Positions 13,192 to 48,576 of a stretch of 48,805 nt of DNA are shown here, piece after piece. Position numbers and translations under genes: made by a program. This DNA comes from a virus, in the IMG/VR virus record IMGVR_UViG_3300028374_000023, positions 1-48,805 of that record. The stretch is one strand, 5' to 3'. Position 1 is the first letter of the stretch, and every line of letters begins with the position of its first letter. A model generated the notes under the pieces. The model was not told where the DNA came from. It saw only the letters and a list, made by a program, of their open reading frames with translations, and searched no databases.

Positions 13192-13192
13192 A

Positions 13193-13723: not shown

Positions 13724-13724
13724 T

Positions 13725-15560: not shown

Positions 15561-15563
15561 ATA

Positions 15564-16166: not shown

Positions 16167-16171
16167 ATAAT

Positions 16172-16498
16172 ATGAGTATTTGGGAAACATTCCAGAATAT
16201 GCAAAAAGAAGCCGCTGCTGAAGAAGTAGAAAAAAGTGCTTCTACTGAAAGTCAAGAAGAAGTTGACGATCAGGTTGAAGAGCTTCAGAAGTATGCAGAG
16301 TGGGCCGAAGGCCAACTAGCAGAAGAGAAAGGAGCGGGAAATTATACCGAAGATGAGGTAATGAAATTAGCGGAAGCTAAGATCGAAGCCGAAATCGAGG
16401 AAGCTATTGAAAGAGAAAAAGTAGCTGAATTATATGAAGCTGGCCAAGTTATGTATGCCGGTTTTAAAGCAGCCTTGGAAGAGGACAGCGCTAACTAA
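16172..16498 (+). CDS. Small acidic helical scaffold-associated protein
   Basis: The 108-residue acidic protein starts MSIWETFQNMQKEAAAEE and is almost wholly helical (VEELQKYAEWAEGQLAEEK, EAEIEEAIEREKVAELYEA). It lies five bases after the scaffold-like gene, with GAGGAG from the end of that gene serving as a ribosome site. It probably belongs to the prohead core with its neighbours. The AEAKIEAE heptads suggest coiled-coil association. Both Trp codons are TGG. No specific family recognised. Confidence 0.65.
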   Translation: MSIWETFQNMQKEAAAEEVEKSASTESQEEVDDQVEELQKYAEWAEGQLAEEKGAGNYTEDEVMKLAEAKIEAEIEEAIEREKVAELYEAGQVMYAGFKAALEEDSAN

Positions 16499-16512
16499 CA
16501 ACTAATTAAGCT

Positions 16513-16872
16513 ATGTCAAAAGAACTATTTAAAAAAGCAGCAAATGCCTTAGAGACTTTAAGCAATGAACGCGATGAACTTGAAAACCAGGTTTCTGGTT
16601 TACAAGAAAAAGTTGCTCATCTTAAGTCATCTGCAGGTCTGGCGCTGAGGCTTTTAAAGCTGGGACAATTCCCGGTGGAAGAGTTTGAAGACAAGTTTAA
16701 TGAATTTTCAGACAAATCGGCTGATGAATTAAAAACTTTCGAAAAGGCTGCTGAGTTAATGGGGTCTAACTCCATGAAATTAGGCAGCTCGCTAGGAGAG
16801 CTAAGTGATGAACTTGCTACCCCTGCAACAGCGGAAGATAAATTTTTTCATAGCCTTTTAGAAGATTACTAA
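16513..16872 (+). CDS. Coiled-coil head protein
   Basis: The 119-residue protein starts MSKELFKKAANALETLS. Residues 10-40 form a clear coiled coil (NERDELENQVSGLQEKVAHL). The rest is helical and acidic, ending ATAEDKFFHSLLEDY. Position between the scaffold-like genes and the decoration gene suggests a third core or scaffold component, but it could be a chaperone. It is Trp-free. Confidence 0.65.
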   Translation: MSKELFKKAANALETLSNERDELENQVSGLQEKVAHLKSSAGLALRLLKLGQFPVEEFEDKFNEFSDKSADELKTFEKAAELMGSNSMKLGSSLGELSDELATPATAEDKFFHSLLEDY

Positions 16873-16901
16873 AATTAAATAAAATAAGGAGAAATAAATA
16901 A

Positions 16902-17345
16902 ATGCTTCGTTTAAAAACCGATTTAAATAAGATAAATCGTTTCGATGTGGAAGCTCCAGATAACCTAGTAGCTTCAGGCGTTGCCGTAACAGGTACTTGG
17001 GTTGTAAAAGAAGGCGACTTACTAGCGCTTCCAACGGCGGGTGATATTCATGCAATGCAGGTTTTCACTGAGTCAAATAGAGATGGAACAGCCGGATGGT
17101 CTCCAGATGTAACAGCGATCCCTGGCTCACGCAGACTTACTGTGTTAGTTGGAAAATACCGCGCTACAACAGACCAATACACCGGAACACCTTCCGCAGG
17201 TGACCCACTAGAAGTGGATGCCGACGGAAAGCTGAAAACAGCAACAAAAGGTGACAACACCGCGGTAGCCGTGTGCACCAAAGCGCCTCATACAGAGCGT
17301 CACTTACAAGCAGATAGTACTGTAATTGAATTCGTAACGCTATAA
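16902..17345 (+). CDS. Probable capsid decoration protein
   Basis: The 147-residue protein starts MLRLKTDLNKINRFDVE and is rich in beta-strand sequence (ASGVAVTGTWVVKEGDLLAL, RRLTVLVGKYRATT), with Gly/Thr/Asp loops. Small beta-rich proteins immediately before the capsid gene are usually decoration or stabilising proteins on the outer capsid. It has an AAGGAG ribosome site and both Trp codons are TGG, in keeping with high expression. No conserved catalytic residue is apparent. Function inferred from position and fold. Confidence 0.65.
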   Translation: MLRLKTDLNKINRFDVEAPDNLVASGVAVTGTWVVKEGDLLALPTAGDIHAMQVFTESNRDGTAGWSPDVTAIPGSRRLTVLVGKYRATTDQYTGTPSAGDPLEVDADGKLKTATKGDNTAVAVCTKAPHTERHLQADSTVIEFVTL

Positions 17346-17367
17346 TAGGAGGTTAAAATAAGGAAAA

Positions 17368-18270
17368 ATGGATACACACAACGCACGACAATTTAACGAT
17401 TTATTCGTTCACAATTTAGATTCACCAGAAGGAAAGGAAAAGGTTGCAGCAGAATCTGCAGCATTTGTCCGTGAAAAACTACGTGAGGTTTCTTTCGCAA
17501 GAAAGATTTTACCACCTCAATACGTTACTAAGGCAGATTTACAGGTTTCTGTAAACCATGACGGCCTAGTTAAAATCATTGAATTAGAACCAGAGTCTAA
17601 GGCAATGTTCATTAACTTCCGTGGTGAGCCAACAACTAACTACGTAGAAGGAAAAAGAGTAGAGCTGAAATTTCACGAAATCAGTTCCGAACTATTCCAA
17701 AAAGCAGAGCAAGAACTTCTTGCTTACAGAATGCCTATTACCCAGGTAATTGAGCGTAACTCTGTTCTGGACATCCAGAAACAAGAGGACGTTGCTTTCT
17801 TAAAGCACGTTGACGCAGCGATTACTGTAGAAGGTAATAACGTTAATGCTAGTTATAACTCGGAAGCCATTCCAGAAACAGAGATCCGTAATCTTTTCGC
17901 AAAGATTGAAGCAAACCAGCTACGTGCTGAGTACTTGCTAATGGATCAACTCATGTTCAACCGATTAATCATCGACAACAATACTAACGGAACCTTTGGT
18001 GACGGTGGTATGAAAGGCGAGATTGCAGTAAACGGGTACAAGTACCCTACACTGTTCGGACGTAAGATTATTGTATCTAACAAGACAGACTTGTTAAATA
18101 ACAAAATCTATGCGTTCACTTCACCGGAATTCATGGGTGAGTTCTGTATCATGAATGATACTAAATTCGACATCGACAAGAAAAGAAACATAATCAGCTG
18201 GTCGGCTTACGAGTCAGTCGGTATGATTATCGCAAACACTAAGTCAGTAGCTAGCTTAACTTTAAGTTAA
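17368..18270 (+). CDS. Major capsid protein
   Basis: The 300-residue protein starts MDTHNARQFNDLFVHNL and follows the HK97-fold arrangement used by many myoviruses: a helical N-terminal region, FINFRGEPTTNYVEGKR near residue 83, a long spine-helix-like region (NLFAKIEANQLRAEYLLMD, about 175-195) and a beta-rich C-terminus (SAYESVGMIIANTKSV). It is preceded by AGGAGGT and a second AAGGA and followed by a strong terminator, consistent with very high expression. The only Trp is TGG. It forms the icosahedral shell. Confidence 0.85.
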   Translation: MDTHNARQFNDLFVHNLDSPEGKEKVAAESAAFVREKLREVSFARKILPPQYVTKADLQVSVNHDGLVKIIELEPESKAMFINFRGEPTTNYVEGKRVELKFHEISSELFQKAEQELLAYRMPITQVIERNSVLDIQKQEDVAFLKHVDAAITVEGNNVNASYNSEAIPETEIRNLFAKIEANQLRAEYLLMDQLMFNRLIIDNNTNGTFGDGGMKGEIAVNGYKYPTLFGRKIIVSNKTDLLNNKIYAFTSPEFMGEFCIMNDTKFDIDKKRNIISWSAYESVGMIIANTKSVASLTLS

Positions 18271-18292
18271 TCCTACTAACTAGTAGATATTT

Positions 18293-18326
18293 AAAGGCAG
18301 TCTCATTGCGAGTCTGCCTTTTTTTA
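18293..18326 (+). terminator. Rho-independent terminator after the capsid gene
   Basis: AAAGGCAG...CTGCCTTT with internal CTC/GAG pairing is followed by a run of seven T. It closes the scaffold-capsid transcription unit. Confidence 0.85.
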
Positions 18327-18336
18327 TTTATCTTTG
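18305..18336 (+). promoter_or_regulatory. Possible Bacteroidota-type promoter for 18341 (leaderless)
   Basis: TATCTTTG at 18329-18336 matches TAnnTTTG exactly. ATTG at 18305-18308, 20 bases upstream, is a three-of-four match to TTTG. The ATG follows after four bases, the same spacing as at 5477. The -33 part lies in the terminator stem. Confidence 0.35.
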
Positions 18337-18340
18337 GTAC

Positions 18341-18934
18341 ATGACAGATATTTTAAATTTGTACCTAGGTAACAGAGATTCAGGAAAAACCAAGCTACTA
18401 GTTTCCAAACTTTTAGAGTCCTTAGCACATAATCCCGGGAAAAGCCCAGATAAATTTGTGTTTATATCAATTCAAAGAGACAAAGAGTTCTTGGCAAACA
18501 ACCCTGACCTCATACCCCTTCGTAATAAATTCACTTACATACAGATATCTGATATAAACTATCCAGAGCCACAACTAGATAGAAAACTAACAAGTAAGAG
18601 ACCCCATTTTTTATTCTTAGACGAGTTTGATCTATATGGAAATAACGCATTAGATGTTATTCTTTACATTTGTAATCATCAAAAAATGGAACAGATATAT
18701 GCAGCAACATCACCCTACAGATTTAGAAGATTCGAAGAGATAAAGCAAGCACTTCACAACCAATACTCTAACAAGGATCTACTGATCGAATTTTTACTTA
18801 TTTCAGATTGGGAACATGGATATCTTTTTAACCCTGATACGGCTGAAATTTATTTAAAACAGAAGTTACGTCCACAAACTATCCTTACTGAAGGTTTTGG
18901 ACTCTATACAGAGTTGACTAATCTAAAGATATAG
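18341..18934 (+). CDS. P-loop ATPase of unknown role
   Basis: The 197-residue protein has LYLGNRDSGKTKLLVSKLL near residue 8, a Walker A motif, and RPHFLFLDEFDLYG near 85, a Walker B motif with a following acidic residue. AATSPYRFRR near 127 may be a sensor region. The arrangement resembles Zot-like or ABC/RecA-type single-domain NTPases. It lies between the capsid and neck genes, so it could act in assembly, though no structural role is established. Both visible Trp codons are TGG. It probably has its own promoter in the terminator region. Confidence 0.7.
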   Translation: MTDILNLYLGNRDSGKTKLLVSKLLESLAHNPGKSPDKFVFISIQRDKEFLANNPDLIPLRNKFTYIQISDINYPEPQLDRKLTSKRPHFLFLDEFDLYGNNALDVILYICNHQKMEQIYAATSPYRFRRFEEIKQALHNQYSNKDLLIEFLLISDWEHGYLFNPDTAEIYLKQKLRPQTILTEGFGLYTELTNLKI

Positions 18935-18962
18935 AGTATATTAAATAAAAAACCAATACATT

Positions 18963-19445
18963 ATGTTAACGAACGCCGAATTAAGTGCCTCCTCAGTACC
19001 CGCAGATATGCAGGGCAGGGTTGATAGATTAAGAAAGTTTCTAGGGGATACCGAACAATTGAATGATCTTACAGAGGCCCAAGAAAATACAGATATTGAA
19101 CTTTATTATGCATTGCAAGATGTGTTTGAACAGATGAACTACGAAATTGAGCCTACCTCTTTACATTTTCAAAAAATATCAGAAATCCCGTGAACTATTT
19201 TAAGGGACGGAGCTTTTCTAAATGTTTTAATATCCAAAGGGATACTAAGCGCAAGGAATGTTTTATCATACAATGACTCTGGTGGAATAACTGTAAAAGA
19301 CCAAGATAAGTATGGTAGATACACCGTGTTTTTTAATATGCTTATTTCCCGTTTTATGAGAGCCGCTCAAGCCTTTAAAAGAGCCAAAAATATTGATGGA
19401 GGATATGGTGGGGCTTATAGCGAATACAGTGATAGCCTTAGTTAA
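18963..19445 (+). CDS. Probable neck / head-tail adaptor protein (TGA=Trp)
   Basis: The 160-residue frame contains TGA at codon 77 (EIP-Trp-TILRDGAFL). The segment WTILRDGAFLNVLISKGIL, then LSYNDSGGITVKDQDKYGRY, resembles neck or adaptor proteins of large myoviruses, in which a Trp precedes an L.DGA motif. Position between capsid and tail sheath genes supports a connector role. It ends at TAA five bases before the next ATG. The exact protein (first or second neck ring) cannot be told from sequence alone. Confidence 0.6.
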
Positions 19446-19450
19446 TCCTT

Positions 19451-20248
19451 ATGATAGCTTTAGAAAAACTCTCCGTATTTAGAAACAAGCCAAACTCACT
19501 AGACCTAGAGTGAGCCTTTAAAGATACTGTGGAAGACTTAAATGATTATGAAGTATCTATTTATGTCTCACAGGCCCCTTCAAACAACTTATCCGAATAT
19601 AACCTTATAGATTCCGGCATATCTGCAAACACATATGTCTACGAAGACTTTACTCCCAGCGGATTAGCACACGGGACAAGACAGTGGTACTACAAACTAA
19701 AGATAGAAAACACTGATACCCAGGAAAACTCCATAACAGATTATTACTACCTTAATAACGAAAGACCTAATTTAAAGTGGTTAAAAATATGAAGGCAGAA
19801 AGATCTGGTTCTTAGAAAAAAGAGCGGTAGAGATTTTTTCCTTTTAAAAAGAAGGACATGGGGAACTCGTTGCGAGGTTTCCTGGGACCCAGTATTATTT
19901 AAACAGACTACAGACGTATGTTCAGATTGTAACTGTTGGGGAACCGGTTGAAGAGAGGGGTATTTTAAACCGCAAAAAGTTAGAGGAATGGTAACCCCAG
20001 CAGCCCAGGTAAAAGACATAGGGTTATGAGGAGAATTTTATCCTAGTGATGTCATGTTTACTACTTTGAACCGTCCCCCACTAGAAGCAGGTGATGTTGT
20101 AGTTGACGCAAAAACAGATAAAAGATTTTTTATACAAAGAGTAAGAACCCTGGAACTATTAGGAGTAGTCATAGAACAGCAAGCACAATTAAGTGTCATA
20201 CACATAGACGATGAAATTTATGAATACTCAATCGAGGATTATAGGTAA
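19451..20248 (+). CDS. Head-tail connector-region protein with zinc-ribbon-like motif (TGA=Trp)
   Basis: The 265-residue frame contains four TGA codons (21, 114, 167, 193). Residues about 1-100 resemble a fibronectin-III-like beta domain (LEWAFKDTVEDLNDYEVSIY...). Residues about 140-175 carry RCEVSWDP...CSDCNCWGTGWRGGYF, where the aromatic following GTG is encoded by TGA. A C..W...C..C...GTG..GGY pattern is found in some phage connector or baseplate proteins. A small beta-rich C-terminal domain follows. It has more Trp per length than any other gene here, 5 TGG and 4 TGA. Location implies a connector or proximal tail component. Confidence 0.65.
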
Positions 20249-20400
20249 TGATTAAAAAAGTAGAAAGAGAGAGAAATGAGGTAAGGGACAAAGATTTATT
20301 GTCACAAATAGCTCTTGAAGTAGAACAAGAAAAAGCAGAAGATAAGATTAAAAAAGAAGGAGCAGAAGTAGCACGTGATTACACCGTCGTTGAGGATTAA
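20248..20400 (+). CDS. Small charged helical protein
   Basis: This 50-residue frame starts in a TAATG overlap with the previous gene and ends at TAA, overlapping the next GTG start by 26 bases. It reads MIKKVERERNEVRDKD, then ALEVEQEKAEDKIKKEG, a single amphipathic charged helix. Both overlaps suggest it is translated as part of the operon. Function unknown; a small assembly factor is possible. Confidence 0.5.
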   Translation: MIKKVERERNEVRDKDLLSQIALEVEQEKAEDKIKKEGAEVARDYTVVED

Positions 20401-21244
20401 AAAAGTATTTTTATCTTTTATACAAACTTATTTTAGTGGACACACGAAATACAAATGGGACATTAATCCTAAAAACACAAAGATTATTGTAGCCGATAAG
20501 TATGCAACTGAATTAGGGATCGCAGCTATGAGACCAACGGTAATAATAGATCGTGGCCCTATAGGGCTAACTGGTAGGTATCGATCCGAGGCATTACCAA
20601 ACAATGATTCCAGAGACTCAGGACTAGAGAGGAGATTTTATTCTAAATCCGGCGGCTCCAGACAAAATAACTACAAATTGACCCAAACCTGGGGATCTAA
20701 TATAAATCTAAGAGTCATGGCAAAAAGGCACTACATTGCTGATGAAATAGCAAATGATATTTTTATACAGCTGTGGGCGCATAGAGAGTGGTTTAAGGAA
20801 CAAGACAAAGGTATACATACCATGAACGGCCTAACCTTGGGAAGAGAACAAACTTTAAAATTATCAGCGGGCGGTATAGAAGTAGCAAACGTAGACATCT
20901 CTTTTAATGTGGAAAGACAAGAAACAGTGAGGTTAGGAGAACGTATGTATAACTGTAGAGTCTACAACGGAGAGGATGAGTTGTATGAAGGAATAGATTT
21001 CCATGTTACTCCAAGTGGTGTCCAAATCGAATTGGTAAATGACCCAGGTAGTCAACTAAATCTGACCATAGACTACATAGACGCCGTAACACTGGAAGAA
21101 AAAAGCGATATAAACTTGATTACTGTCACCGGAAGTAATAGATTATATACAGTCCCGGATAATGGAAAAATCTATGGATATTATAATCTTTTTGAAAGCT
21201 TTACAGCAGACAATACTGGAACAGAAATAATTAACGAAAATTAA
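20375..21244 (+). CDS. Tail-completion-region structural protein
   Basis: The 289-residue protein starts at GTG (MITPSLRIKKVFLSFIQTYF). The first half has mixed alpha/beta character (TVIIDRGPIGLTGRYRSE, QTWGSNINLRVMAKRHYIADEIAN); the second half is beta-rich (YEGIDFHVTPSGVQIELV, LNLTIDYIDAVTLEE). Position just upstream of the sheath gene fits a tail terminator or completion protein that joins neck and tail. All Trp codons are TGG. The family is not certain. Confidence 0.6.
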   Translation: MITPSLRIKKVFLSFIQTYFSGHTKYKWDINPKNTKIIVADKYATELGIAAMRPTVIIDRGPIGLTGRYRSEALPNNDSRDSGLERRFYSKSGGSRQNNYKLTQTWGSNINLRVMAKRHYIADEIANDIFIQLWAHREWFKEQDKGIHTMNGLTLGREQTLKLSAGGIEVANVDISFNVERQETVRLGERMYNCRVYNGEDELYEGIDFHVTPSGVQIELVNDPGSQLNLTIDYIDAVTLEEKSDINLITVTGSNRLYTVPDNGKIYGYYNLFESFTADNTGTEIINEN

Positions 21245-22015
21245 ATGAGTAAAGTAAAGGGATTATTTAAAGCTCTAAATTATATAAGGGGCGCAAAAAG
21301 CTCAGGAAAGGCTTTTAACCACGCGGTTAAATCGAAGTCACCTAGCTTAAAAAATATGAAAGAGTACGGTAGTACTGTTTGAGAAAAATCAAAAGTCGAT
21401 TACAGGGATGCCGGAAAATATATGGCACGGTTCAAAGACCCTGTCAATAATGTGTCGAAAGACATACCAAAGAATATTAAAATACCAAAGATGCAGCATG
21501 ATAGCTCTTCAGGTAGAGCAGTTAGAACTTCTCTAGGAAATACAGCGGACGCTCTTTTAAAAGTCACAAAAGACGTTAAAGGGAAAGGCATGATCGGAGG
21601 TACTACACAGGTTGGAAAAAACTTCGGTAAATTAACCAAAGAACAGCTTAAAGGAGATTTACATAAAGAGGTTTTCAATCCAGTAGTGTACAAGAAAAAT
21701 GGTGAGTCTTATTTAAAGACAAAGTCCAAATTTCTAAAAGATCGTAAAGTGGTTAGCACCACAAACCGGGACTCAGTTATCGTTAGAAAACGTAAAGGAC
21801 TGACGCCCGTTTCGATAGCGTTAGGAGGAAGTGGGGCCAGTATTGGTGCAGCTTCTTATGCTCTTAGCAATAAAAACAAACCGCAGTCAAAACGACTGCA
21901 AGAAGCAGCTGTTGATACAGCCTTGTTTACCGTGTCGGCCCCGGTAGGGCTAGCCGTAGCGCTATCTCGAGGTGCGAAAGCAACGCAGCGCAAGAAACAA
22001 AATGAAATAAAATAA
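21245..22015 (+). CDS. Hypothetical basic protein with Gly-rich segments (TGA=Trp)
   Basis: The 256-residue protein starts MSKVKGLFKALNYIRGAK, passes TGA at codon 46 and ends at TAA. It is strongly basic, with a Gly/Ala/Ser segment (IALGGSGASIGAASYALS) near residue 200 and a second hydrophobic stretch (LFTVSAPVGLAVALSRG) near 232. Composition resembles the accessory proteins at 2225, 5846 and 7183 rather than its structural neighbours. It lies 17 bases before the sheath gene. Possibly a minor virion protein delivered to the host; unrecognised. Confidence 0.6.
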
Positions 22016-22032
22016 AAATAAGGAGATAAAAA

Positions 22033-23637
22033 ATGGCATATACAAAACCTGCTGCTACAGTAAGACAGGTCCAGAAGACAGCTAGTTTCCCATTACCGGA
22101 TCCTACCTTAGAATCTTGTGTTGTAGGCCCCGGCTATTACTGGCAAGATCCTGAGAGAGACGATAATGAGAATAGTTCTATATATACGACATCGTATGAT
22201 GGAAGTGAGCTCGTAGTTTCTGGAAGTGCATTTTCTTCACATACAGATTATATTGAGGACACAGTTATTGTAGACCTCATTAGGACTGAGGGGCCAAACG
22301 GCACTATCGGTTCAGTTAAACACTTAGTGAAGGACACAGATTTTACCGTATCCGGAGAGAATATCACAATTACAGCAGATATTTCTGGGTTCGATGTAGA
22401 CAATGCTGATAAAGCCAATGTAAGAGTTGGATTTTTAGCAAAAAGAACAGATTTAAATAATAACTATCAGAAAGTAATTGAGGCTCAAGACATTATAGAC
22501 TATGTTGGACAACCGGTTCCTTGGAACCCTTTAGCTTATGGAGCTTCTCTGGCCATGTCAAATGGAGGAGTAAGCACAAATATTCTTGGAGTAGATCCAG
22601 GTACAGGCGGTGATTCATCTAGCTTTTCAAACGCGGTAACAGCTCTTGAAAATAAAGAAAAAGTTTATGCAATAGCACCTTTAACTAGAGTAGGATCTGA
22701 GGCGGATAAGTTTGCAACGCATTGTAATGCGATGTCAGTACCCGCTGAGGGGAAAGAACGTATCGCCTTTGTTTCCAAAAGAGTAGATTACTCCCCAGAA
22801 GAAACTACACCGACTACTAATTCTGAAAAACAAGAGGTAGCACAAGCTATCCAAAATGTCAGTGCAGCGTCAGGCGAAAAGAGATTCTTTTCTATACACC
22901 CAGACGCGGGGTATGTTGAAACAAGAGCTCATGTAAGCACTCTTTCAGACTCTTTCATACAAGCCGTTTTTGGATCAACTTTTAGTTTAAAGCCTAAGTT
23001 CGTAACAAATGTTACTGCAGGATCAACCAAGTTTAGAGCTTTTAGTGAGATAACTTCTTCAGCAATTACTACTTTAAAGGCAAATGATATTGATTTCGTA
23101 ACAGTTTATTATCCGGTACCCGGATACTATTTTGGTGCAGCCCTTGTAGGTGCTGTAGCTGGTAAGAGGCCAGAAGAGCCATTAACAAACAGCGGAATAA
23201 ATGGATTCTCTATGCTTTATAAGAGTAATGACCACTTTAATAAATCACAGCTAAATACTATCGCAGAAGGCGGTACCTGGATTTTAGAAGAGAGGGGAGT
23301 AGGAGCTATTATAAATAGACACCAGTTGTCTACAAACGCAACAACAATTCAAACTAGAGAGTTATCTATTACTACTCAAATTGATTACGCTTCCAAATAT
23401 ATAAGGGACCTAGTGTCACCTTTAATTGGGAAATTTGTAATATCAGATGGGTTTTTAAAACAGCTTAGGGCTGCGATAGTAAGTGCAGGAAACGAACTTG
23501 TAGATCTAGGCTATGTAAGAGCTGTTGACGTTTTAAATGTATACCAAGATGAAGTTCAACCAGACACTATAAAAGTGGATCTGGCGATAACACCGCTTTA
23601 TCCAGTTAATTACATAAAAATAACTCTAGAATTTTAA
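22033..23637 (+). CDS. Tail sheath protein
   Basis: The 534-residue protein matches contractile tail sheaths: a beta-rich N-terminal region with insertions, then PGYYFGAALVGAVAGKRPEE near residue 365, LNTIAEGGTWILEERG near 412 and the C-terminal domain IDYASKYIRDLVSPLIGKF ... PLYPVNYIKITLEF that interlocks neighbouring subunits. Family length is 450-700. AAGGAG precedes the ATG. All three Trp codons are TGG. It contracts to drive the tail tube through the cell envelope and defines the virus as myovirus-like. Confidence 0.9.
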   Translation: MAYTKPAATVRQVQKTASFPLPDPTLESCVVGPGYYWQDPERDDNENSSIYTTSYDGSELVVSGSAFSSHTDYIEDTVIVDLIRTEGPNGTIGSVKHLVKDTDFTVSGENITITADISGFDVDNADKANVRVGFLAKRTDLNNNYQKVIEAQDIIDYVGQPVPWNPLAYGASLAMSNGGVSTNILGVDPGTGGDSSSFSNAVTALENKEKVYAIAPLTRVGSEADKFATHCNAMSVPAEGKERIAFVSKRVDYSPEETTPTTNSEKQEVAQAIQNVSAASGEKRFFSIHPDAGYVETRAHVSTLSDSFIQAVFGSTFSLKPKFVTNVTAGSTKFRAFSEITSSAITTLKANDIDFVTVYYPVPGYYFGAALVGAVAGKRPEEPLTNSGINGFSMLYKSNDHFNKSQLNTIAEGGTWILEERGVGAIINRHQLSTNATTIQTRELSITTQIDYASKYIRDLVSPLIGKFVISDGFLKQLRAAIVSAGNELVDLGYVRAVDVLNVYQDEVQPDTIKVDLAITPLYPVNYIKITLEF

Positions 23638-23654
23638 TACTTAGGAGAAAATAA

Positions 23655-24356
23655 ATGTCACTAGAAAATCTATCAAACTGGAAAGCTAACTTTCCAAATA
23701 AACAGAATGTACAGCCCGACGAGCACGAAGGTGCCCTGAATGGTGCGTATCTCTCTGGCGAGAGTGCTGTTATTGTTAGTGGACCTCCGGTTTTATCCGG
23801 GTCTGCGGCCTCTTTATACCCAATAGGGTTAGTACAGAGTGCACAGCTACAGCAAAATAAACAATTAAATGAAATATTTGAGATAGGAGGTAGAACACCT
23901 TTCTTCATTCCAGCTAGGGTAAGAGTAAGAGCTTCTTTAAGTAGAGTTTTATTCGATGGCCCGTCTCTTTTTTATGCAATGTACGAAAGAGAGTCAAACG
24001 ATGGTGGGACACCGACTGTTCCCTCATCAGCAGATTTTGGAAGCGGTTCAAGCCACTCTTTAAATAATCCAACCATGCCATACCCGGATTCAGGTATTAT
24101 CGATACTCAATCGGAGAGTCAAAATGCTAACCCAGGAAAATTCTGGGGCAACTTAGGCTCTGCAATATTCAATAGACCGTTAGGTTTAGGATTTGTACTT
24201 TTTGATATGGATGGAGAGCCTTATGGAGGTGTTTATTTAGAGAAGTGTTATATTCAATCCCATTCTTTTGGGATTAGCGCTAACGCTACTGTTCTTGCAG
24301 AGAATGTAACCCTATCAGCTTCCAGGGTCAAACCTTTGGATGCATCTGGGCTTTAA
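23655..24356 (+). CDS. Tail tube protein
   Basis: The 233-residue protein follows the sheath after 17 bases, as in most contractile-tailed phages. It is beta-rich with Gly/Ser loops: PIGLVQSAQLQQNKQLNEIF near residue 56, FEIGGRTPFFIPARVRVRAS near 74 and GGVYLEKCYIQSHSFGISAN near 195, the last typical of tube-type folds. TTAGGAG precedes the ATG and a terminator follows. Trp codons are TGG. It polymerises into the inner tube. Confidence 0.8.
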   Translation: MSLENLSNWKANFPNKQNVQPDEHEGALNGAYLSGESAVIVSGPPVLSGSAASLYPIGLVQSAQLQQNKQLNEIFEIGGRTPFFIPARVRVRASLSRVLFDGPSLFYAMYERESNDGGTPTVPSSADFGSGSSHSLNNPTMPYPDSGIIDTQSESQNANPGKFWGNLGSAIFNRPLGLGFVLFDMDGEPYGGVYLEKCYIQSHSFGISANATVLAENVTLSASRVKPLDASGL

Positions 24357-34993: not shown

Positions 34994-35794
34994 TTATAAG
35001 TATTCTATCAATTTTTTGCCTTCCGGCTTCTCTCTTAATTTATTTAAACTCTGGTCCTTTATTTGCCTGATTCTCTCTCTTGTCAAATCAAGTTCTAGGC
35101 CAATCTCCCGCAGATTATATGTTCTGGTATATCTTATTCCATAATACATACAGAGTATTTTTTTCTCCCTTTTTGGGAAATTTGAAATTACATCTAAAAA
35201 TTCTTCTCTGAACTCTTCTAGTTTTTTCTCTAAGTTCTCATCATCCCTGGCTAAAACTTCATGTAGATCCGCCTCACCCATTTCTGTTCTTGGCACGTCC
35301 AAACTTATTATAGTATGTAAGTGATGAACATCATCTTTAAGGGAAGGATCTTCTATATAGTCTTGTAATTCGGATAGAGTTGGTTCACGTAATAGTTGTT
35401 GTTCTAACTCTTTTTTTATTTTTGCTATTTTAGAAACATTTATAAGTTTGTTAAGGGGTATTCTAATCGTGTTTGAGTGTGAATACAGTGCACTAAGTAT
35501 ACTCTGTTTTATCCAGAATACGGCGTAAGAAATAAACTTAACACCAACTTCCAGATCAAAACGCTCGTAAGCTTTTAATAACCCCATATTACCCTCCGCA
35601 ATTAAATCCTCAAGAGGTAATCCCTTTCCCTGATAATATTTTGCGACTTGAAAAACAAATCTAAGATTTGAATTTATTAACTTTTCATAGGCTCATCGTT
35701 CTCCGGCCCTTGCTTTTTTAAATAACTCTATTTCTTCTTCTCGAGTAGGAATAGGGTCATGCTTTTTTATGTCTTTAATATATTTGCTAATCAT
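34994..35794 (-). CDS. Sigma-70 family factor with in-frame TGA at codon 34
   Basis: The 266-residue protein starts MISKYIKDIKKHDPIPTREE. After GER comes TGA and the frame continues AYEKLINSNLRFVFQVAKYY (region 2.1), LEDLIAEGNMGLLKAYERFD, FISYAVFWIKQSILSALYS (regions 2.3-2.4), region 3 and a clear region 4 (LREIGLELDLTRERIRQIKD). It resembles Bacteroidota primary sigma factors (LEKL..ANLRFVVSVAKQYQ). All conserved regions lie after the TGA, so with a standard code only a 33-residue peptide is made; with UGA as Trp a complete sigma results. One other Trp is TGG. It probably directs a class of phage genes, and the TGA could time its appearance. Confidence 0.9.
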
Positions 35795-35845
35795 AACGTT
35801 TAATATAGTGAATCTTAATGTAAATTGGAAAATTAAAATAGGGGA

Positions 35846-35870
35846 GGGGAGAGCTTTATCAGCTCTCCCC
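35846..35870 (-). terminator. Terminator-like hairpin before the sigma gene
   Basis: GGGGAGAGCT-GATAA-AGCTCTCCCC is a ten-base perfect stem, followed on the minus strand by a CCTATTTTAATTTT tract. It lies between the 35877-36251 gene and the sigma gene. Confidence 0.6.
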
Positions 35871-35876
35871 CAACCC

Positions 35877-36772: not shown

Positions 36773-37037
36773 ATTTTTCCAATATAGTTATATTTTTGAT
36801 ATCGTCAACGTGGAGATAAGTTCTATTAGGAACATAACCTCCAAACATCTCTGATATACTGTCGTATGTTTGTCGTACTTGCTTCTTTGTACCAAGTACC
36901 ATGGTGCCTAATTCTACAACACCCTCGGGAGATATATTATGAAATTCTCCATTCGTAGGCTCTGTGCCCTTTTTTACTCGAATAGATATAATAGTCCCCG
37001 GCTCTAATTTGCTAAGTACTTCCGTGAATTTGCTCAT
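36720..37037 (-). CDS. Hypothetical protein, apparent TGA stop
   Basis: The 105-residue protein starts MSKFTEVLSKLEPGTIISI, has a beta-rich middle (GTEPTNGEFHNISPEGVVEL) and a charged tail ending ETDEDS then TGA. Reading TGA as Trp adds only Trp-Asn-Thr-Glu before TAA, so either stop is possible. It overlaps both the RecU gene (26 bases) and dut (52 bases). Unknown family. Confidence 0.6.
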   Translation of the reverse strand: MSKFTEVLSKLEPGTIISIRVKKGTEPTNGEFHNISPEGVVELGTMVLGTKKQVRQTYDSISEMFGGYVPNRTYLHVDDIKNITILEKYAKKESKDKRQETDEDS

Positions 37038-37518
37038 TAAATAAGTCTTTTAAAAATTTCTCATCGTCTAAAAAGTCTAAATATGAATCTACTTTGACTA
37101 GTTTAGAGTGCTTCTTAAGATCCTCAAAAGGAATAGATTTCCTTTCGCTTACGAATCAAAAGTGTTCTACAACAGAAATGGGGACAATAAATGCGTCCTC
37201 GTTGTAGAGAGATTTAAATCAGATTAAAAAGAAGGCTAAGCCGCCTAGCTCCCTAACCATCATCAGGTACTCTAACTGATGTTGATGGATATTAGATAAG
37301 TCGAATCGAGTTTTTACTTTTGTTTCCTTTGCATCGAATGCAATAAACTTTCCACCTTTTATTAAGCCGGCGAAGTCAACAGTTGACTGTTTAGGAACGA
37401 TCCCGTTTTTAGTCATAATAATAGGCACCGGTATCTGTAAGATAAGGGCCTCTTTATTTAAACGTTTTTTTAAGTTGAGCTTATTCGCTCTTTTTTCTAG
37501 TTCTCTTCCGCCTGGCAT
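37012..37518 (-). CDS. recU: RecU-like Holliday junction resolvase (two TGA=Trp)
   Basis: The 168-residue frame ends at TAG. STVDFAGLIKGGKFIAFDAK then ETKVKTRFDLSNIHQHQLEY (residues 48-87) matches the RecU nuclease core (STxDYxG...G.yidFEAKET..K..F.L.N.H.HQ), with the Asp, Glu/Asp and Lys of the active site. TGA at codons 101 and 121: the second falls in EHF-Trp-FVSERKSI, where cellular RecU has FFFW..KK..RKSI. A stop at codon 101 would leave the core but remove the C-terminal part that the family needs. Resolvases act on branched DNA before packaging. It has no TGG at all. Confidence 0.85.
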
Positions 37519-37520
37519 AA

Positions 37521-37548
37521 ATAAAAAAAGAGGGGCTCGAAGCCCCTC
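37521..37548 (-). terminator. Terminator just before recU
   Basis: GAGGGGC-TTCGA-GCCCCTC is followed on the minus strand by seven T. The recU ATG comes three bases after, so recU must have its own start or depend on readthrough. Confidence 0.85.
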
Positions 37549-37554: not shown

Positions 37555-38019
37555 TTAGTTGTTAAATAGTTTCTTCTTTCCGGTATTAGTAGCAGTGGCC
37601 GGTGCAGCCCCTTCAGTGGAACCTGTATACTCGGTGAAGTTTTCCACCTCGTTACGCTCCTTACCTGAATTCGGGTTGGTAGTGATAGAAATGAATCCAC
37701 CCACTTTACTACCCGGGACTTCATTGATAATGTCTCCAACCTCAACCTCATCTCGCTCAGCTAGTTCTTCTAGCCCACAAGCTTTTAAGAAATTGATAAG
37801 GTAAATCATTGCTGGAGGAGTTAATGCGAAGCTTTTCCAAACTTTGCGATTTTCAAAGCTAGGACCTAAAATGGTCATCTTTAGCTCTAACATTGGTGTT
37901 TTCTTAACCCGGGATTCAGTTGATTTTGCTGAATCTATTACTAGGTCATAACGGTTCTCAGGTATTACACTAAAGTCTCCGCCTGAATTCTCTCTTGCTT
38001 TATTAAAGTTTAATTTCAT
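37555..38019 (-). CDS. DUF669-like single-strand-DNA-binding-type protein
   Basis: The 154-residue protein starts MKLNFNKARENSGGDFSVIP, has an OB-fold-like core (NRYDLVIDSAKSTESRVKKT, PMLELKMTILGPSFENRKVW) and an acidic/Ala/Thr linker before KKLFNN. The order matches phage DUF669 proteins commonly encoded beside Sak4-type recombinases, which bind single-stranded DNA. It is directly downstream of the recombinase gene. The Trp is TGG. Confidence 0.75.
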   Translation of the reverse strand: MKLNFNKARENSGGDFSVIPENRYDLVIDSAKSTESRVKKTPMLELKMTILGPSFENRKVWKSFALTPPAMIYLINFLKACGLEELAERDEVEVGDIINEVPGSKVGGFISITTNPNSGKERNEVENFTEYTGSTEGAAPATATNTGKKKLFNN

Positions 38020-42004: not shown

Positions 42005-42448
42005 ATGGATAAAGCAAAAATCTTAGAGGATCTTTTTGAGAGCGATACAACCAAACATACGTTCGAACTAGGTAAATATAAAATAACAGTAAAGAATCTT
42101 GATTACACATCACAGTATCACTTAGAAGGGGATTTAAAAAAACTCAGAGAAAATAAAGCAACCGATAGGCAATTCGTTCAGAGGTATGCCTACTCACTAT
42201 TAAGTAAAACTCTTATTAATTGGAATGGTAAGAAGTTCGATAGTTGGGATGAATGGGAAGGCTTTTTACAAGGTAAAAGTGTTGCACTGCTAGACAAGGC
42301 AGTAAAGGAGCAACAGAAATTAGAAAAGGCTATTAAAGAAGCCTGTGAAGTAGAGAATATTGATGATGTTTTTTCAAAGGGGGACGAGCCGGCCGACGCG
42401 CCCGAGCCCTCACAAAAGGCATCGACGTCGGAAGAAAAGGCTCAGTAA
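42005..42448 (+). CDS. Tail assembly chaperone, zero-frame product
   Basis: The 147-residue protein starts MDKAKILEDLFESDTTKHTF, forms a mixed alpha/beta domain and ends in a low-complexity acidic tail (DEPADAPEPSQKASTSEEKA). It precedes the tape measure gene, the usual place for the gpG-type chaperone, and contains a canonical -1 slippery site at 42376-42382. It probably coats the tape measure protein during tail assembly. No Shine-Dalgarno. Three Trp codons are TGG. Confidence 0.8.
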   Translation: MDKAKILEDLFESDTTKHTFELGKYKITVKNLDYTSQYHLEGDLKKLRENKATDRQFVQRYAYSLLSKTLINWNGKKFDSWDEWEGFLQGKSVALLDKAVKEQQKLEKAIKEACEVENIDDVFSKGDEPADAPEPSQKASTSEEKAQ

Positions 42449-42795
42449 GAGAAAGAGTACTTTTACAGATGATGCAACAGGAGCAAGAAAAAGAAATGCT
42501 CCGAACGTTTATAGTAGCAAAAGCTTCTACCCTAGATACCACTAACCAGGAAAAAGTAGAAGCTTATAATAACTTAGTAGAGAAGCTTATGGATCTCGAA
42601 TACCCAGGAAGAGAAAAGGAAAAAGCAAAGACTAAGGCAGACATGGAGAAAATATACACGCAACTCTTTAGAGGACCTGACGGTAAACCTAGAGAGATCA
42701 AAATGAAAGCCGGTGATTCTGATGCAGAGGTAGGAGCCGGTCCTAAATTAAAAAACGACTTATTAAAATACAGAAATGGCAGAACAAGAAGTTAA
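42005..42795 (+). CDS. Tail assembly chaperone, -1 frameshift fusion product (gpGT-like)
   Basis: A -1 slip at AAAGGGG (codons AAG GGG) fuses the first part of 42005-42448 to a 3' frame with GRAGRRARALTKGIDVGRKG, then MMQQEQEKEMLRTFIVAKAS and a Lys-rich helical region to TAA at 42793. A GC-rich segment (GAGCCGGCCGACGCGCC) follows the slip site and could form the stimulatory structure. The fused form is the GT-type chaperone known from lambda and many other phages. The stop codon lies 19 bases inside the tape measure gene. Confidence 0.8.
42376..42382 (+). promoter_or_regulatory. Programmed -1 frameshift site A AAG GGG
   Basis: The heptamer AAAGGGG is positioned A_AAG_GGG in the zero frame (X XXY YYZ). 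The -1 frame downstream is open for 410 bases to TAA. Confidence 0.8.
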
Positions 42796-45700
42796 GTACA
42801 ACGTTAGACTAAACGAAGAAGACCTTTCGCAACAATTAGAGCGTATAAGGCAACAAATTGACTTAACTATGGGATCTCTGTCTTACTCCCAAGACGGAAT
42901 CCCACAAGCCTCTGATGTAATTTCTGGACAGGCTTTAGCCGCACTCAACGGAATGCCAGGTGTTCAAATGCCTGCTCAACCACCCGTAGGGAGTGCTGTT
43001 GATCAGATGTCTGGGGGCACCTCTTTCTTAGATAGTAACGCAGAATATCTAAGATTAGGCTATAATAAATTTAACCAGGATATGCGAAAAATAGGTTTGA
43101 TATCACAACCTATTGATCCAAGTATATCATCTATGCCTCCCTCAATGTCGACAGGGCCAGAAGGTTTTTTCCAATCAGCTAGCGCTCTATATAATCCTTT
43201 CTACAGAGGGTACGACCCTAACACTGCTGGAGCTTTTATAAGTGACTATAGAGACCAAGCAGCTCTTAATATGTCGGATATGACTTCAGACTTTATAACA
43301 AGTAACGGATTCATGGCGGCCGGAGCAGTAGGCGGAGCAATAGTAGGCGGAGCTATTGTCCCCGGAGTAGGGGCATTCGGGGGAGCTGTTATAGGTAGTA
43401 CAGTGGGGTCTTTTGCTGACCTCGGATTTTCAGTAACGGCAAGACAGGCAAAGGAACGAGAATCTTTAGCCAGAGCTTTTAAGGGAATAGCTAGTGATAG
43501 TTTTGGGAAGTTATCTATAGACGACGCCAGAAGTATGGCGGGCAGGCTACAAGATAAAGCATACTCCGCAGAAGGATTTTCCGAGGGGTATAGTATGGAG
43601 TATTTAGAATCTAACGTAGCTGATTTTGCACAAGCAGGTGGATTTTCTGGAGTATCTAATTATGAGGAAATGGATCAGGTATTGCAGGGAGTGATTGAGA
43701 ACACTAGAGATTTTGCAAATAAAATAGGATCTACTCAACGTGAAGCTGCCCAAATAATGGCCCAACTACAGCAGGAAATGGTAGCAACTACCCGAGAGAT
43801 GGATACCGTAGGAACCCAGCTAGCTTACGAAGGAGAAGTTACAGGTTTGGGAGCAGTAGGTGTAAGCAAGTTCGGTATGCAGGGTGTAGAGATGATGAGA
43901 GGCACAGGGGTAGGGTCTAATGTCGCCTTTGATATGGCAAGAGAGAGTTTAATGCAGGCCGAGCGTTTAAAAATGGCTGACCCCGTGACTAGACAATTAA
44001 TACACGAGGCGGGAGGAACACAGTCTTTTGCTCTTTCTAATATGGAAGCCACAAATAGAATTATGATGAGTGGCCAAGGAATGCTATATACCTCTGGGCT
44101 TTTAGGAGGCTCTATTCCAGGAGATAGTATGCAAGATATGTTAGGAGCTTCTTCAAATTATTTTTCCGGGGACCCTAGAAGAATGATAAGTCTACCGGCT
44201 CAACAAGCACAGCTAGTGGCTTCATTGCCAGAGCAGATGCAACAATCGATGCCATTTATGAATGCAATGGAGCTTGTAAAACAAACAAACCTAGCTAACG
44301 GAGACGGGACAGTTAATAGAGAAGTTTTAACAAGCGCAATGATGAATATGTATGGAGTAAGCGCTAATCAAGCACAAAGTTTTATATCGATGGCACAAGA
44401 CGTGAGCGCAAATGACGCTGTGAGCCAAGAAATAGGAATGATCACAAGAGAAATTAGTGACACTATGGCGGCTAGCGAGGATGTGGCCTGGTTCGGAAGA
44501 ATGAAGGCAGGTGCCGCTAATTTTCTGAGGGTAGATGCTGCAGAAGACTTATATGAGAATATTATAGATGGTACGTCAGGCTATTTTGAAAGACGTATGG
44601 ATAGAAAAAACGACACCCTACGAATGGGCATAGATAGACAACCAGCAACAGTAAGAGCAGCTCTAGAAAGAATAAGAGGCTCAAAAGGTTTCGAAGCTAT
44701 GGGGACGGGATTTGATTTTGGAGATTCTGCAAAAATAGAAGCCAAAACTGTTTTTGATCAATTAAGACAGAGCGGAACTTATGGGGAGGGTGATTTTAAT
44801 ACCTTCAGAAATAAGTTTGAATTCGCTAGAGGTTTTGACAAAAGTGCAATCACAAAAGGAGATGCACTTCTAGCAGAGAGATTAGGATCAGATACATTTT
44901 CTGGCGGATCAGTGCAAAGCACCAGAGATGATTTTGCACTAACTATGCATTATCAAAAAAGACGGGAAGAGTTAAGTGCTAAAGGAGTCCCTAGAGATCA
45001 AATTGAAACTCTAATAGATACGGAAGTAAGCCAAATGGTTGGAGGAGCTTTTGAGAACGTAGATTCTAGCATACAAAGTGCTGTACTCAACCAGATGGCT
45101 AAAGATGGTGTAATGGGGATGGACCAAAGGGAGCTTGAAGTCATCTCTAGGGGGAGGTCATTAGCTGAATCAGGTATGACCGCGGAACGCATGACTAGTC
45201 ATGGAGCAGATTTACAGGAAACTGCTTTAGGAAACGTTAGCGGATTATTGCTTGAAGGGGCTGCCCAAAGTAGAATTGGTAGTCTAACTGAACAGGGACA
45301 GAGAGTGTTAACCGAGCAAATAACGAGATCAGGAGCAATAGATGCTTCGCAACTAAGTAACGCACAAGATAGAGATATCGCCAGGTTTATATCCAGACAT
45401 CACGGAGACCGCGTTGCGTCCGCAGCAGCGTTATATGGAGCAGGTGGTGCATACCAATTAGAGGCAAACATTACGCAACAATCAAGAGAACTTGCCAACC
45501 AGTTAGGATTTGCAGTCCCCACCGATGTAGGATTAGAAAGCTTTGCTTATAAAAAATTATCACAGCTAGCAAAAATAGGTTCAGGTGAAGATTTAACTAT
45601 AGAGGGAGTCTTAGGTAATCCGTCCGACGTCCTAAATCAATTAGAGGCCGCCGGTTTAGACAGAAACAAGTTAGAGGGCAGAATTAAAGGATCTATGGAA

Positions 45701-45928
45701 ATCGGAGAATTAATGGAAGCTGTAAGCGAAAGTGTTGGTAAGGTTCAAGGATCTCATATTATGTCAAACCTGAATTGGGAGGGTGCCTCAGAACCTCTTC
45801 AGAAATTTTTTAGTATGCAACAAAGAGGCGTAGAAAGTGTAATGGATAGGTTAGATAGCGCCTTCGCAACAATAAATGGCGGAAATGCAATCAGAGTAGT
45901 AGATGCAGAAAAAAACCCAGCAAGATAA
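42776..45928 (+). CDS. Tape measure protein
   Basis: The 1050-residue protein follows the chaperone pair, as tape measure genes do. It is almost entirely helical with long Gln/Met/Glu-rich stretches, a Gly/Ala membrane-like segment at about residue 178-220 (MAAGAVGGAIVGGAIVPGVG, then FGGAVIGSTVGSFADLGF) and many Ser/Asp-rich helices later. The length would set the tail at roughly 150 nm if 1.5 angstrom per residue holds. It begins with a short charged N-terminus (MAEQEVKYNVRLNEEDLSQQ). Two Trp codons are TGG and there is no in-frame TGA over 3.1 kb. Confidence 0.8.
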   Translation: MAEQEVKYNVRLNEEDLSQQLERIRQQIDLTMGSLSYSQDGIPQASDVISGQALAALNGMPGVQMPAQPPVGSAVDQMSGGTSFLDSNAEYLRLGYNKFNQDMRKIGLISQPIDPSISSMPPSMSTGPEGFFQSASALYNPFYRGYDPNTAGAFISDYRDQAALNMSDMTSDFITSNGFMAAGAVGGAIVGGAIVPGVGAFGGAVIGSTVGSFADLGFSVTARQAKERESLARAFKGIASDSFGKLSIDDARSMAGRLQDKAYSAEGFSEGYSMEYLESNVADFAQAGGFSGVSNYEEMDQVLQGVIENTRDFANKIGSTQREAAQIMAQLQQEMVATTREMDTVGTQLAYEGEVTGLGAVGVSKFGMQGVEMMRGTGVGSNVAFDMARESLMQAERLKMADPVTRQLIHEAGGTQSFALSNMEATNRIMMSGQGMLYTSGLLGGSIPGDSMQDMLGASSNYFSGDPRRMISLPAQQAQLVASLPEQMQQSMPFMNAMELVKQTNLANGDGTVNREVLTSAMMNMYGVSANQAQSFISMAQDVSANDAVSQEIGMITREISDTMAASEDVAWFGRMKAGAANFLRVDAAEDLYENIIDGTSGYFERRMDRKNDTLRMGIDRQPATVRAALERIRGSKGFEAMGTGFDFGDSAKIEAKTVFDQLRQSGTYGEGDFNTFRNKFEFARGFDKSAITKGDALLAERLGSDTFSGGSVQSTRDDFALTMHYQKRREELSAKGVPRDQIETLIDTEVSQMVGGAFENVDSSIQSAVLNQMAKDGVMGMDQRELEVISRGRSLAESGMTAERMTSHGADLQETALGNVSGLLLEGAAQSRIGSLTEQGQRVLTEQITRSGAIDASQLSNAQDRDIARFISRHHGDRVASAAALYGAGGAYQLEANITQQSRELANQLGFAVPTDVGLESFAYKKLSQLAKIGSGEDLTIEGVLGNPSDVLNQLEAAGLDRNKLEGRIKGSMEIGELMEAVSESVGKVQGSHIMSNLNWEGASEPLQKFFSMQQRGVESVMDRLDSAFATINGGNAIRVVDAEKNPAR

Positions 45929-45936
45929 TAAAATAA

Positions 45937-48576
45937 ATGTCAGACACACAAACAACGTTTCAAGAATATACAGGATTTGAAGTTTACTTAGAGGGAATAC
46001 AAGTTCCCTTTTCCTCATTTAATATTAGGGAGATTGAGGGAGACTTCCCCTCTGCGACTGTACAATTCCCCGCCAACAGCGGTAGCTTAAGAGTATTAGG
46101 TGGTACCATAGTTCAGATATTTGGGCCCGAGCCAGAGAACACAGCTAATAAAATTTTATTATTCGAGGGAGAAATAAGACAAATAAACTATAGTAAGACA
46201 GGATCCTCGAGGGCGGTATCATTTGAAGCTACGTCCTTATTATCTCAGTGGCAATCAGTGACTGCGCGACCAAAAGATTCTATGGTGACAGCGGAGTGGG
46301 GAGATGCTCTGGGTGACTATTTATACGAGTACTATAATAGTACAGAAAAGGAGCTAGAAAATGACACCCCGGAAACCAACTCTAATTTTCAAGATAAGAC
46401 AAAAGCAGGAGAAGAGGAAGATCCTATTGAGAAGTATGATTCTCTGGGAGAGCCAAAGCTTACAGTTTTTAGTGGGTTAGTAGATGAAATTAGTAAATTA
46501 ATAGGTGATGATAAAATAAGCGGAGGAGATCTAGAACTTTTTATAGATTTCTTCCTTAAAAAGTTTGAAGAGTATGATATGTTTTATGGACTTGTTTCGA
46601 ACTCCTTCAATATAAGAGAATCTATTTTTACATCCCCCAACATAGGAAAAATTGAAGCCTTTAAAAGAAAAGCTTTGATAGAGAATTTTTTCACTCTTTC
46701 CGAATCTAAGTTCTCTCTTAAAAACGGTGGGACAATTAAACTCATGGAGGCCGTGGTAGAGTTCTTAAATGTGTTTCACTATACTTTAGTAGCTCCTTCT
46801 ACTTATACAGGATCTCTTCAATTTCAATCTGGGAATGTAGAAAGATCAGCGCCCATAAGAGGATATTTTTTACCTAACATGGAAAACTCTCCTCCTATAA
46901 AATGTAATTTACTTTTTCCACAACAAGTTAGTAAAATAAACTTTTCAAGAAATTTTTTATCGGAGCCTACAAGAACCATCAGTGAGGTACACAGCGTTAT
47001 GCAAAGTGGTATCATTGGCTCTACAAAAGGGTTTAAACCGTTTGCTGTACAGCCTAAACTAAATATTACACAGGACGGTATAGACCAAAACACTATTGGA
47101 TTAACTTCAGAGGAAACATACCGTGGAATAACACCTAATGTAGTTAATCAAACTTCCTTTTTTGTAGAAACGGAAAAACAAGATATTATAGGAGAGACTA
47201 AATCTTTAGAGGAGGCACAAAAAGAGGAATACCAATCCAAGATAAAAAAACCTTTAAATGAACTTACTTTAAATGCTCACCAACAGGCTAGAATGGCCAC
47301 CAGAAATATGTCTATAAGCGCAGTATATACTCCTTACTCAATGGTAGGGTTACCCGGAGCTTACATTGAACCGGACAAGGGCCCATCCTTTACAGGGGTT
47401 ATAGCAGCAAAAACGCTCTCAGTCTCTTCACAAGGCTCCGCCTCGACATCCATAACAATGAGGGCAGTAAGAACAGTGCACGATCTAAAAGATATTACAG
47501 AAGAAGATTTTGAAGACGCTATCAACGACTTCACTTTGGATCCTTATACTGACATAAACTCATATCTTTTTGACCAAAGCGTATATGACTTTAGAGAGAT
47601 TGGCAAGACCTTGTACCCATATTTACGCAGAGGGACGCTATCTTCGAAGGGTAGTATTTTTAAACAATACGCAGAAGACGAGCAAGCTTTCTCTAAGGGC
47701 GTTGATGCTCTGGAAAAGATGGAGAAGCAGGAACAATTTGTAGACACATATGACAGTATTTTAGACATTTTACGTGACGACAGTGGTGATATACAAAACA
47801 GGATAGCCACAGACTTATCTCCTGAAACCGGTAACAATTTAAGAAATAGTGGAGCCTATACTCGGGATATTTACGAGGCAATTTATAAGTACATAGGTAT
47901 TTATAATGAAATACCTAAAGAAGGCAGCGCACTAAAAGACTTTATAAATTCCCAGACTTCAAGATCTATAATAAGTAAGGCAGACTATTTTGCATCAATT
48001 GGTATAGACACTGCATCCGACATAGATAATAAATCAAACTATAAAGATGCTATTTCTATTTTTAGAGGGACTGAGGCGGGTCTTAAAATAAGAGATTCAA
48101 TATTGGAGGCGCAAGGCAGAACTACGCAGAAAATAATTGATAACGGAGACCAAGAAGAGATGAGACGGCGGGAGGTAAAGCTTCAACAAGAAGTAAATTC
48201 TTATAAACAGTCTATACTTGAAGCTGAGGCCCTTTTTGATGATAGAAAATATACTAACACATTACTATCATTAGGGAAACCAAATGAGCTAGCTTTAAGA
48301 GAAAATGCCTATAATGCGCTCATCGAGGCGCAGGAAAAGTTTGAGGAGATTTCTAAAGAATTAGAAGATCTCAGGAAAGAATTAGGATCCGCTACCCAGG
48401 ATTCTGGCACTGTTGACTTTGTCATTCAATTTGATAAAGAAGCTTTCAAACCTTATAATTTAACGAGAAGAGCTCACGTCAACTTAGCGTTCAGAAAACA
48501 AGTAAGAGATGCCTTATTAAAAGAGTTAAGAACAAATGATGCTCTAGGAAACGATAATCTAACCCTATTAAACTAA
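45937..48576 (+). CDS. Baseplate hub-type tail protein
   Basis: The 879-residue protein follows the tape measure gene by eight bases. The beginning (GFEVYLEGIQVPFSSFNIRE, then ATVQFPANSG, GTIVQIFGPEP, FEGEIRQINYSKTG) has the beta-barrel character of hub proteins of the gp27/gpD type. The middle has helical segments (LELFIDFFLKKFEEYDMFYG) and a second beta region (TPYSMVGLPGAYIEPDKGPS), and the C-terminal 250 residues are helical (RREVKLQQEVNSYKQSILEA). This would make the trimeric hub at the tube tip. Two Trp codons are TGG. The stop overlaps the next ATG. Confidence 0.65.
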   Translation: MSDTQTTFQEYTGFEVYLEGIQVPFSSFNIREIEGDFPSATVQFPANSGSLRVLGGTIVQIFGPEPENTANKILLFEGEIRQINYSKTGSSRAVSFEATSLLSQWQSVTARPKDSMVTAEWGDALGDYLYEYYNSTEKELENDTPETNSNFQDKTKAGEEEDPIEKYDSLGEPKLTVFSGLVDEISKLIGDDKISGGDLELFIDFFLKKFEEYDMFYGLVSNSFNIRESIFTSPNIGKIEAFKRKALIENFFTLSESKFSLKNGGTIKLMEAVVEFLNVFHYTLVAPSTYTGSLQFQSGNVERSAPIRGYFLPNMENSPPIKCNLLFPQQVSKINFSRNFLSEPTRTISEVHSVMQSGIIGSTKGFKPFAVQPKLNITQDGIDQNTIGLTSEETYRGITPNVVNQTSFFVETEKQDIIGETKSLEEAQKEEYQSKIKKPLNELTLNAHQQARMATRNMSISAVYTPYSMVGLPGAYIEPDKGPSFTGVIAAKTLSVSSQGSASTSITMRAVRTVHDLKDITEEDFEDAINDFTLDPYTDINSYLFDQSVYDFREIGKTLYPYLRRGTLSSKGSIFKQYAEDEQAFSKGVDALEKMEKQEQFVDTYDSILDILRDDSGDIQNRIATDLSPETGNNLRNSGAYTRDIYEAIYKYIGIYNEIPKEGSALKDFINSQTSRSIISKADYFASIGIDTASDIDNKSNYKDAISIFRGTEAGLKIRDSILEAQGRTTQKIIDNGDQEEMRRREVKLQQEVNSYKQSILEAEALFDDRKYTNTLLSLGKPNELALRENAYNALIEAQEKFEEISKELEDLRKELGSATQDSGTVDFVIQFDKEAFKPYNLTRRAHVNLAFRKQVRDALLKELRTNDALGNDNLTLLN

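Follow-up and report, generated by a model that had tools for sequence, protein, structure and literature searches.

The sequence analysed here (the window) is the whole of IMG/VR virus record IMGVR_UViG_3300028374_000023, positions 1 to 48,805. On its minus strand, between a DUF669 gene and a sigma factor gene, lies a predicted RecU-family Holliday-junction resolvase gene that is interrupted by two in-frame TGA codons and preceded by a terminator. Assignment of genes to early and late types was made from gene content and strand alone. The relevant features are as follows.

55..24356, plus strand: late-type module (terminase, capsid/tail-type genes), with 26 internal TGA codons
26967..41872, minus strand: early-type cluster, with clear internal TGA confined to the RecU and sigma genes
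34994..35794, minus strand: sigma-70-type factor with TGA at codon 34; Pfam Sigma70 regions 2 and 4 above cut-off
35845..35871, minus strand: hairpin resembling a terminator, 50 nt before the sigma ATG
37012..37518, minus strand: predicted RecU-family resolvase gene (Pfam and fold), 168 aa with TGA as Trp
37156..37158, minus strand: in-frame TGA at RecU codon 121, on the conserved RecU Trp
37219..37221, minus strand: in-frame TGA at RecU codon 100, within strand 94-101 of the model
37323..37386, minus strand: catalytic PD-(D/E)xK region, STVD (D48) and FDAKE (D62, K64, E65), 5' of both TGAs
37530..37548, minus strand: intrinsic terminator hairpin before RecU, with its T-tract at 37529-37523, four bases from the ATG
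37555..38019, minus strand: DUF669 gene, upstream neighbour of RecU, no TGA
42005..48576, plus strand: right-hand genes, no TGA; homologues in recoded relatives have TGA

A RecU-family gene with two in-frame TGA codons

The RecU frame opens with ATG and closes with TAG; in the standard code it would yield only 99 residues. A preliminary description of this DNA had called the product RecU-like and both of its tryptophan codons TGA, and both statements hold: there are two TGA and no TGG codons, and the family assignment is supported at three levels. The protein matches PF03838 (Pfam RecU; E 2e-29, residues 4-150 against profile positions 2-158 of 162), PDB RecU chains match it by sequence (E 3e-14), and its AlphaFold model (pLDDT 85) has as top Foldseek matches the RecU structures 2fco, 1y1o, 1zp7 and 5fdk (E 3e-11 to 1e-8). 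All eleven matches at E ≤0.001 are RecU, and the modelled RecU fold includes elements beyond codon 100. The putative catalytic residues (D48, D62, K64 and E65) are invariant across ten phage RecUs and pair with TDYNG...FEAKE of Bacillus RecU; in the same ten proteins invariant or near-invariant columns extend to about residue 146-147. The true C-terminus thus does not lie before codon 101, the point on which alignment with RecU structures had been proposed as a check. On sequence and predicted structure, then, the gene encodes a RecU-family (PD-(D/E)xK) Holliday-junction resolvase of a tailed phage, for which junction cleavage is predicted. With the Bacillota enzymes (B. subtilis 1zp7, 1rzn and 5fdk; B. 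stearothermophilus 2fco) it shares the PD-(D/E)xK motif, TVD...FDAKE, the conserved Trp and the RKSIP segment; it differs from them in its sequence (about 30% identity), its shorter N-terminus and its two UGA-encoded Trp codons.

The same virus is represented by an independent contig, IMGVR_UViG_3300035702_000343 (here G001), 99.4-99.96% identical to the window over the shared parts; it has all 507 nt of the gene unchanged, and the TGA codons are thus not an assembly error.

The two codons differ in their surroundings. Codon 121, as had been proposed for the second TGA, pairs with the RecU Trp of the Bacillus 'AWW/YFW' segment (chains 1y1o, 2fco and 1rzn, from B. stearothermophilus and B. subtilis); it also stands opposite a TGG-encoded Trp in seven of 13 phage relatives. 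The first had been placed at codon 101 but is codon 100; 12 relatives have His at this position and another has Gln, but the nearest relative, IMGVR_UViG_3300028372_000017 (G009), also has TGA. Because residue 100 falls inside strand 94-101 of the model, with more strands and helices following until about residue 160, a 99-residue product would be without the end of that strand and everything beyond it. Such a fragment would keep the catalytic motifs but, according to the model, break a core strand, and is probably inactive.

UGA as a tryptophan codon

A scan with the capsid alignment gave 192 related viral contigs, the best 80 of which were examined. Among homologues from these 80, Trp occupies 396 of the 598 cells opposite window TGA codons (66%) and Gly four; opposite window TGG codons, Trp occupies 858 of 1511. 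Reading of UGA as tryptophan in the window phage is supported by these alignments. Many relatives use zero TGA, and on the capsid tree the recoded label switches at least four times on well-supported branches, the group that includes the window being uniformly recoded. Early homologues in recoded lineages stop at TAA or TAG, the exception being one doubtful TGA in G040, and TGA ends some early genes in the standard-code relatives G002, G003, G005 and G007. TGA is thus avoided as a stop, with two window ORFs ambiguous in this respect. Two other codes were considered: TGA as glycine (code 25) was rejected, Gly filling fewer than 1% of the cells that face window TGA codons, and recoding of TAG is unsupported, in-frame TAG being just scattered through the alignments.

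Opal suppressor tRNAs are frequent, but not universal, in phages whose late genes use TGA for Trp. In the window, ARAGORN and Rfam give tRNA-Lys only (relaxed ARAGORN settings returned noise), and neither the window nor its sibling G001 nor G009, whose genomes are possibly incomplete, yielded a UCA suppressor tRNA. Genes of the RF1 and TrpRS families are absent from 18 clade records. In the parts examined, the large relatives G004, G017 and G028 have tRNA-Trp(CCA), and G028 also has a tRNA-Sec-like UCA gene (L166:10651-10747). The G017 tRNA-Trp (L160:12187-12258) carries A at position 24 in our numbering, which we take to be the Hirsh-type position, and in that of G004 the anticodon stem is mismatched at its foot. 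Variant tRNA-Trp(CCA) reads UGA as a near-cognate codon in bacteria (PMC13092985); by analogy, near-cognate reading by the tRNA-Trp(CCA) of the large relatives is a lead, and only a lead, to the UGA decoder. G004 and G028 also have tRNAs whose anticodon is CUA. A search for the host by capsid alignment against genome contigs returned no relative.

Between the late-type and early-type genes the window also contains a candidate tmRNA gene (25107-26212, minus strand), which scores 36 bits in Rfam, under the cut-off of 47. A group I intron (RF00028, 88 bits) apparently splits its T-loop; the intron would span 25859-25123 (737 nt) and enclose an oppositely oriented HNH-type ORF (25174-25680). The 3' exon CTCCGCACCTCCACCA restores the T-stem and the acceptor stem (G3-U70); the spliced sequence gave no ARAGORN call. 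Introns in the T-loop have precedent in bacterial tmRNA (PMC11915505). Intact tmRNA genes occur in many phages of the clade (L027:6400-6789, L031:17129-17514, L156:11224-11608, L160:5542-5944), several of them predicted to encode tags of unusual length (about 23-30 residues). Between the tmRNA and tRNA-Lys, at 26321-26806, the window has some 435 bp, including a 98-aa ORF, that G001 lacks.

Unequal use of TGA in early and late genes

Seven recoded lineages were compared: the window, G009, G039 (joined by G041, a near relative), G040, and the large records G004, G017 and G028 (205-210 kb). The early cluster of the window comprises helicase, exonuclease-like, AAA ATPase, DUF669, RecU, dUTPase-like, sigma and family-A polymerase genes, among others; the exonuclease-like and dUTPase-like labels come from motifs judged by eye, without a family search, and within the late module a family search was applied to the terminase alone. 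Across the seven lineages TGA accounts for about 104 of 328 Trp codons in late-type genes (about 32%), compared to 9 of 289 (about 3%) in early-type genes. In the early genes of the window it makes up 10% of Trp codons, all of them within RecU and sigma. This scarcity is not a matter of base composition, because the same early genes otherwise prefer A-ending codons (51-76% in the Lys, Glu, Gln and Leu pairs). Avoidance of UGA in early genes and its acceptance in late ones implies that UGA becomes readable, or tolerable, only as infection proceeds: the contrast matches the trace expected of a code that comes to be read in the course of infection.

RecU departs from its early neighbors. In the seven lineages it has 13 Trp codons, four of them TGA, and the rest of the early genes have 5 TGA in 276 (Fisher 2.8e-4, on small counts); a rate-based, family-wise permutation within lineages gives P 0.0027. 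A cruder permutation, in which an early family qualifies once TGA occurs in three lineages, does not single RecU out (P 0.5-0.6), because Trp-rich genes hit three lineages by chance. The RecU rate matches that of late genes and does not exceed it. The codons involved lie at three sites in three lineages: codons 100 and 121 in the window, the equivalent of codon 100 in G009, where 121 is TGG, and in G039/G041 the conserved Trp of 'WL' at about residue 140. The codon-100 TGA common to the window and G009 may be a single inherited event. RecU of G040, G004, G017 and G028, all recoded, has TGG only, and UGA dependence is therefore not obligatory; RecU contigs L271-L273 likewise hold no TGA, and one of these shares its sample with a recoded late-gene contig.

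Sigma is the second early exception. Its TGA differs in position between the two phages that have one, being codon 34 in the window and the first W of the region-2 segment YAVWW in G009, and all sigma TGAs fall in this pair. TGA is also carried by the exonuclease-like homologue of G039/G041 and, among small early genes, by one or two. RecU had been described as the other TGA-bearing gene of the minus strand. For clear cases this is accurate, RecU and sigma being the two, but three weaker candidates exist:

27764-28186, minus strand: TGA within an ATGA overlap with the next start
30393-31211, minus strand: TGA upstream of the likely ATG
36708-37037, minus strand: TGA four codons before TAA

The ATGA overlap (27818-27821, between 27764-28186 and 26967-27821) could itself be a true TGA stop for an early gene.

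Terminators and the probable timing of resolvase expression

The stem of the strong intrinsic terminator before RecU, GAGGGGCT/AGCCCCTC at 37548-37530, is followed by TTTTTTT (37529-37523), ATTT and the ATG; with its flanks the hairpin folds at -15.9 kcal/mol (shuffle z -2.3). The preliminary description had put this terminator three bases from the ATG, one base too close, and had suggested that transcription may be controlled separately. In support of this, the terminator sets RecU apart from the upstream gene, and in G009 an 11-bp stem of unrelated sequence with the same T-tract adjoins the RecU ATG at the same place. No terminator was found upstream of RecU in the recoded G004, G017, G028, G039, G040 and G041. 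A terminator before sigma likewise occurs at the same boundary in G009, and the stems of both terminators, that of RecU and that of sigma, are unrelated between the two phages. No Shine-Dalgarno sequence is seen between the RecU hairpin and the ATG; the RecU message must thus cross the hairpin or begin inside it. Scans of the window for sigma-70 promoters gave a background level only and were left unused. Elsewhere in the cluster a hairpin with T-tract (28839-28856) adjoins the ATG of a small gene at 28832, a boundary that is marked by a terminator in G009 too.

Position behind a terminator, together with a late-gene rate of UGA, most likely places RecU in the functional middle/late set, and recurrence of UGA in the RecU of related phages suggests that full-length enzyme is made only once UGA is read through. 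We therefore favor, with a probability of roughly 60%, the reading that RecU is a late-acting gene in the early strand, complete only when UGA is decoded. If this is so, then early transcripts would halt at the hairpin before RecU, and any early translation of the gene would end in the 99-residue fragment. Full-length protein would need read-through of the terminator (or a promoter at or inside it) plus UGA decoding, and would arrive in time for debranching of replicated DNA prior to packaging. Resolution of junctions is needed before packaging in phages; for RecU, both the timing of expression and the link to packaging are what we infer. UGA would be tolerated in RecU since the gene is expressed when UGA means Trp: dependence on UGA may be a consequence of late expression, not its cause.

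The converse, that the UGAs of RecU and sigma were selected as a translational checkpoint which awaits UGA decoding, is unlikely. TGA does recur at different sites in RecU and in sigma, both genes stand behind terminators, and a stop at codon 100 would, in the model, cut inside the RecU core; moreover, codon 100 is kept as TGA in the window and G009 although 54 of 84 identical RecU residues differ in codon. What speaks against selection of this kind is a RecU rate that shows no excess over late genes, four recoded lineages whose RecU holds no TGA, and sigma TGAs confined to a single pair of phages. The claim that RecU relies on UGA for late action accordingly divides: the late-gene TGA rate agrees with it, but the regulatory purpose is undercut by the four lineages with TGG only. 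Also doubtful is a broader scheme in which sigma and resolvase would both be withheld by terminator plus UGA, the onset of UGA decoding then freeing late transcription and DNA processing.

Regulation might be dispensed with altogether if the host, or the phage from the start, read UGA as Trp throughout infection, TGA being merely a second Trp codon. That neither the window phage nor its sibling yielded a suppressor tRNA, RF1 or TrpRS fits this view, as do the TAA and TAG stops of early genes; what makes it improbable is that early genes which favor A-ending codons restrict TGA to RecU and sigma, that the early/late contrast repeats in other recoded lineages, and that close relatives are standard-code, with repeated switches of the trait on the capsid tree. 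As for recent acquisition of RecU from another recoded phage, TGA codons included, RecU genes do occur in many otherwise different Bacillota phages, but the closest relatives of this one lie within the same phage clade, its neighbors are the same in G009, and another lineage has its RecU TGA at a different site: we consider this origin very improbable.

Non-structural genes of the early cluster that gain UGA repeatedly, amid neighbors that almost all avoid it, offer natural test cases for recoding as a possible control of infection timing. Such genes predict which proteins await the code switch, and for a resolvase and a sigma factor the delay has an obvious purpose.

Comparison with other recoded phages

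An excerpt from a survey of TGA=Trp recoding gives a UCA suppressor tRNA in only 11 of 73 cases; the window clade, also TGA=Trp, is seen only as metagenomic viral contigs and has both recoded and standard-code members. Stop-codon-recoded phages described by Borges et al. 2022, as presented in PMC11210395 and PMC10746230, have recoding biased to late or lytic genes, and a code readable only during infection is the proposal made there for other recoded phages. As far as those accounts go, the window phage resembles them in its use of UGA for Trp, the enrichment in structural genes, few or no TGA stops and the existence of standard-code relatives. It differs, by the same accounts, in that no opal suppressor tRNA was found in the window, G001 or G009 and no RF1 or TrpRS in 18 clade records, and in that a resolvase and a sigma factor of the early cluster carry UGA behind terminators. 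Recoding of late genes is thus already known; these two exceptions, each behind a terminator, appear to be new.
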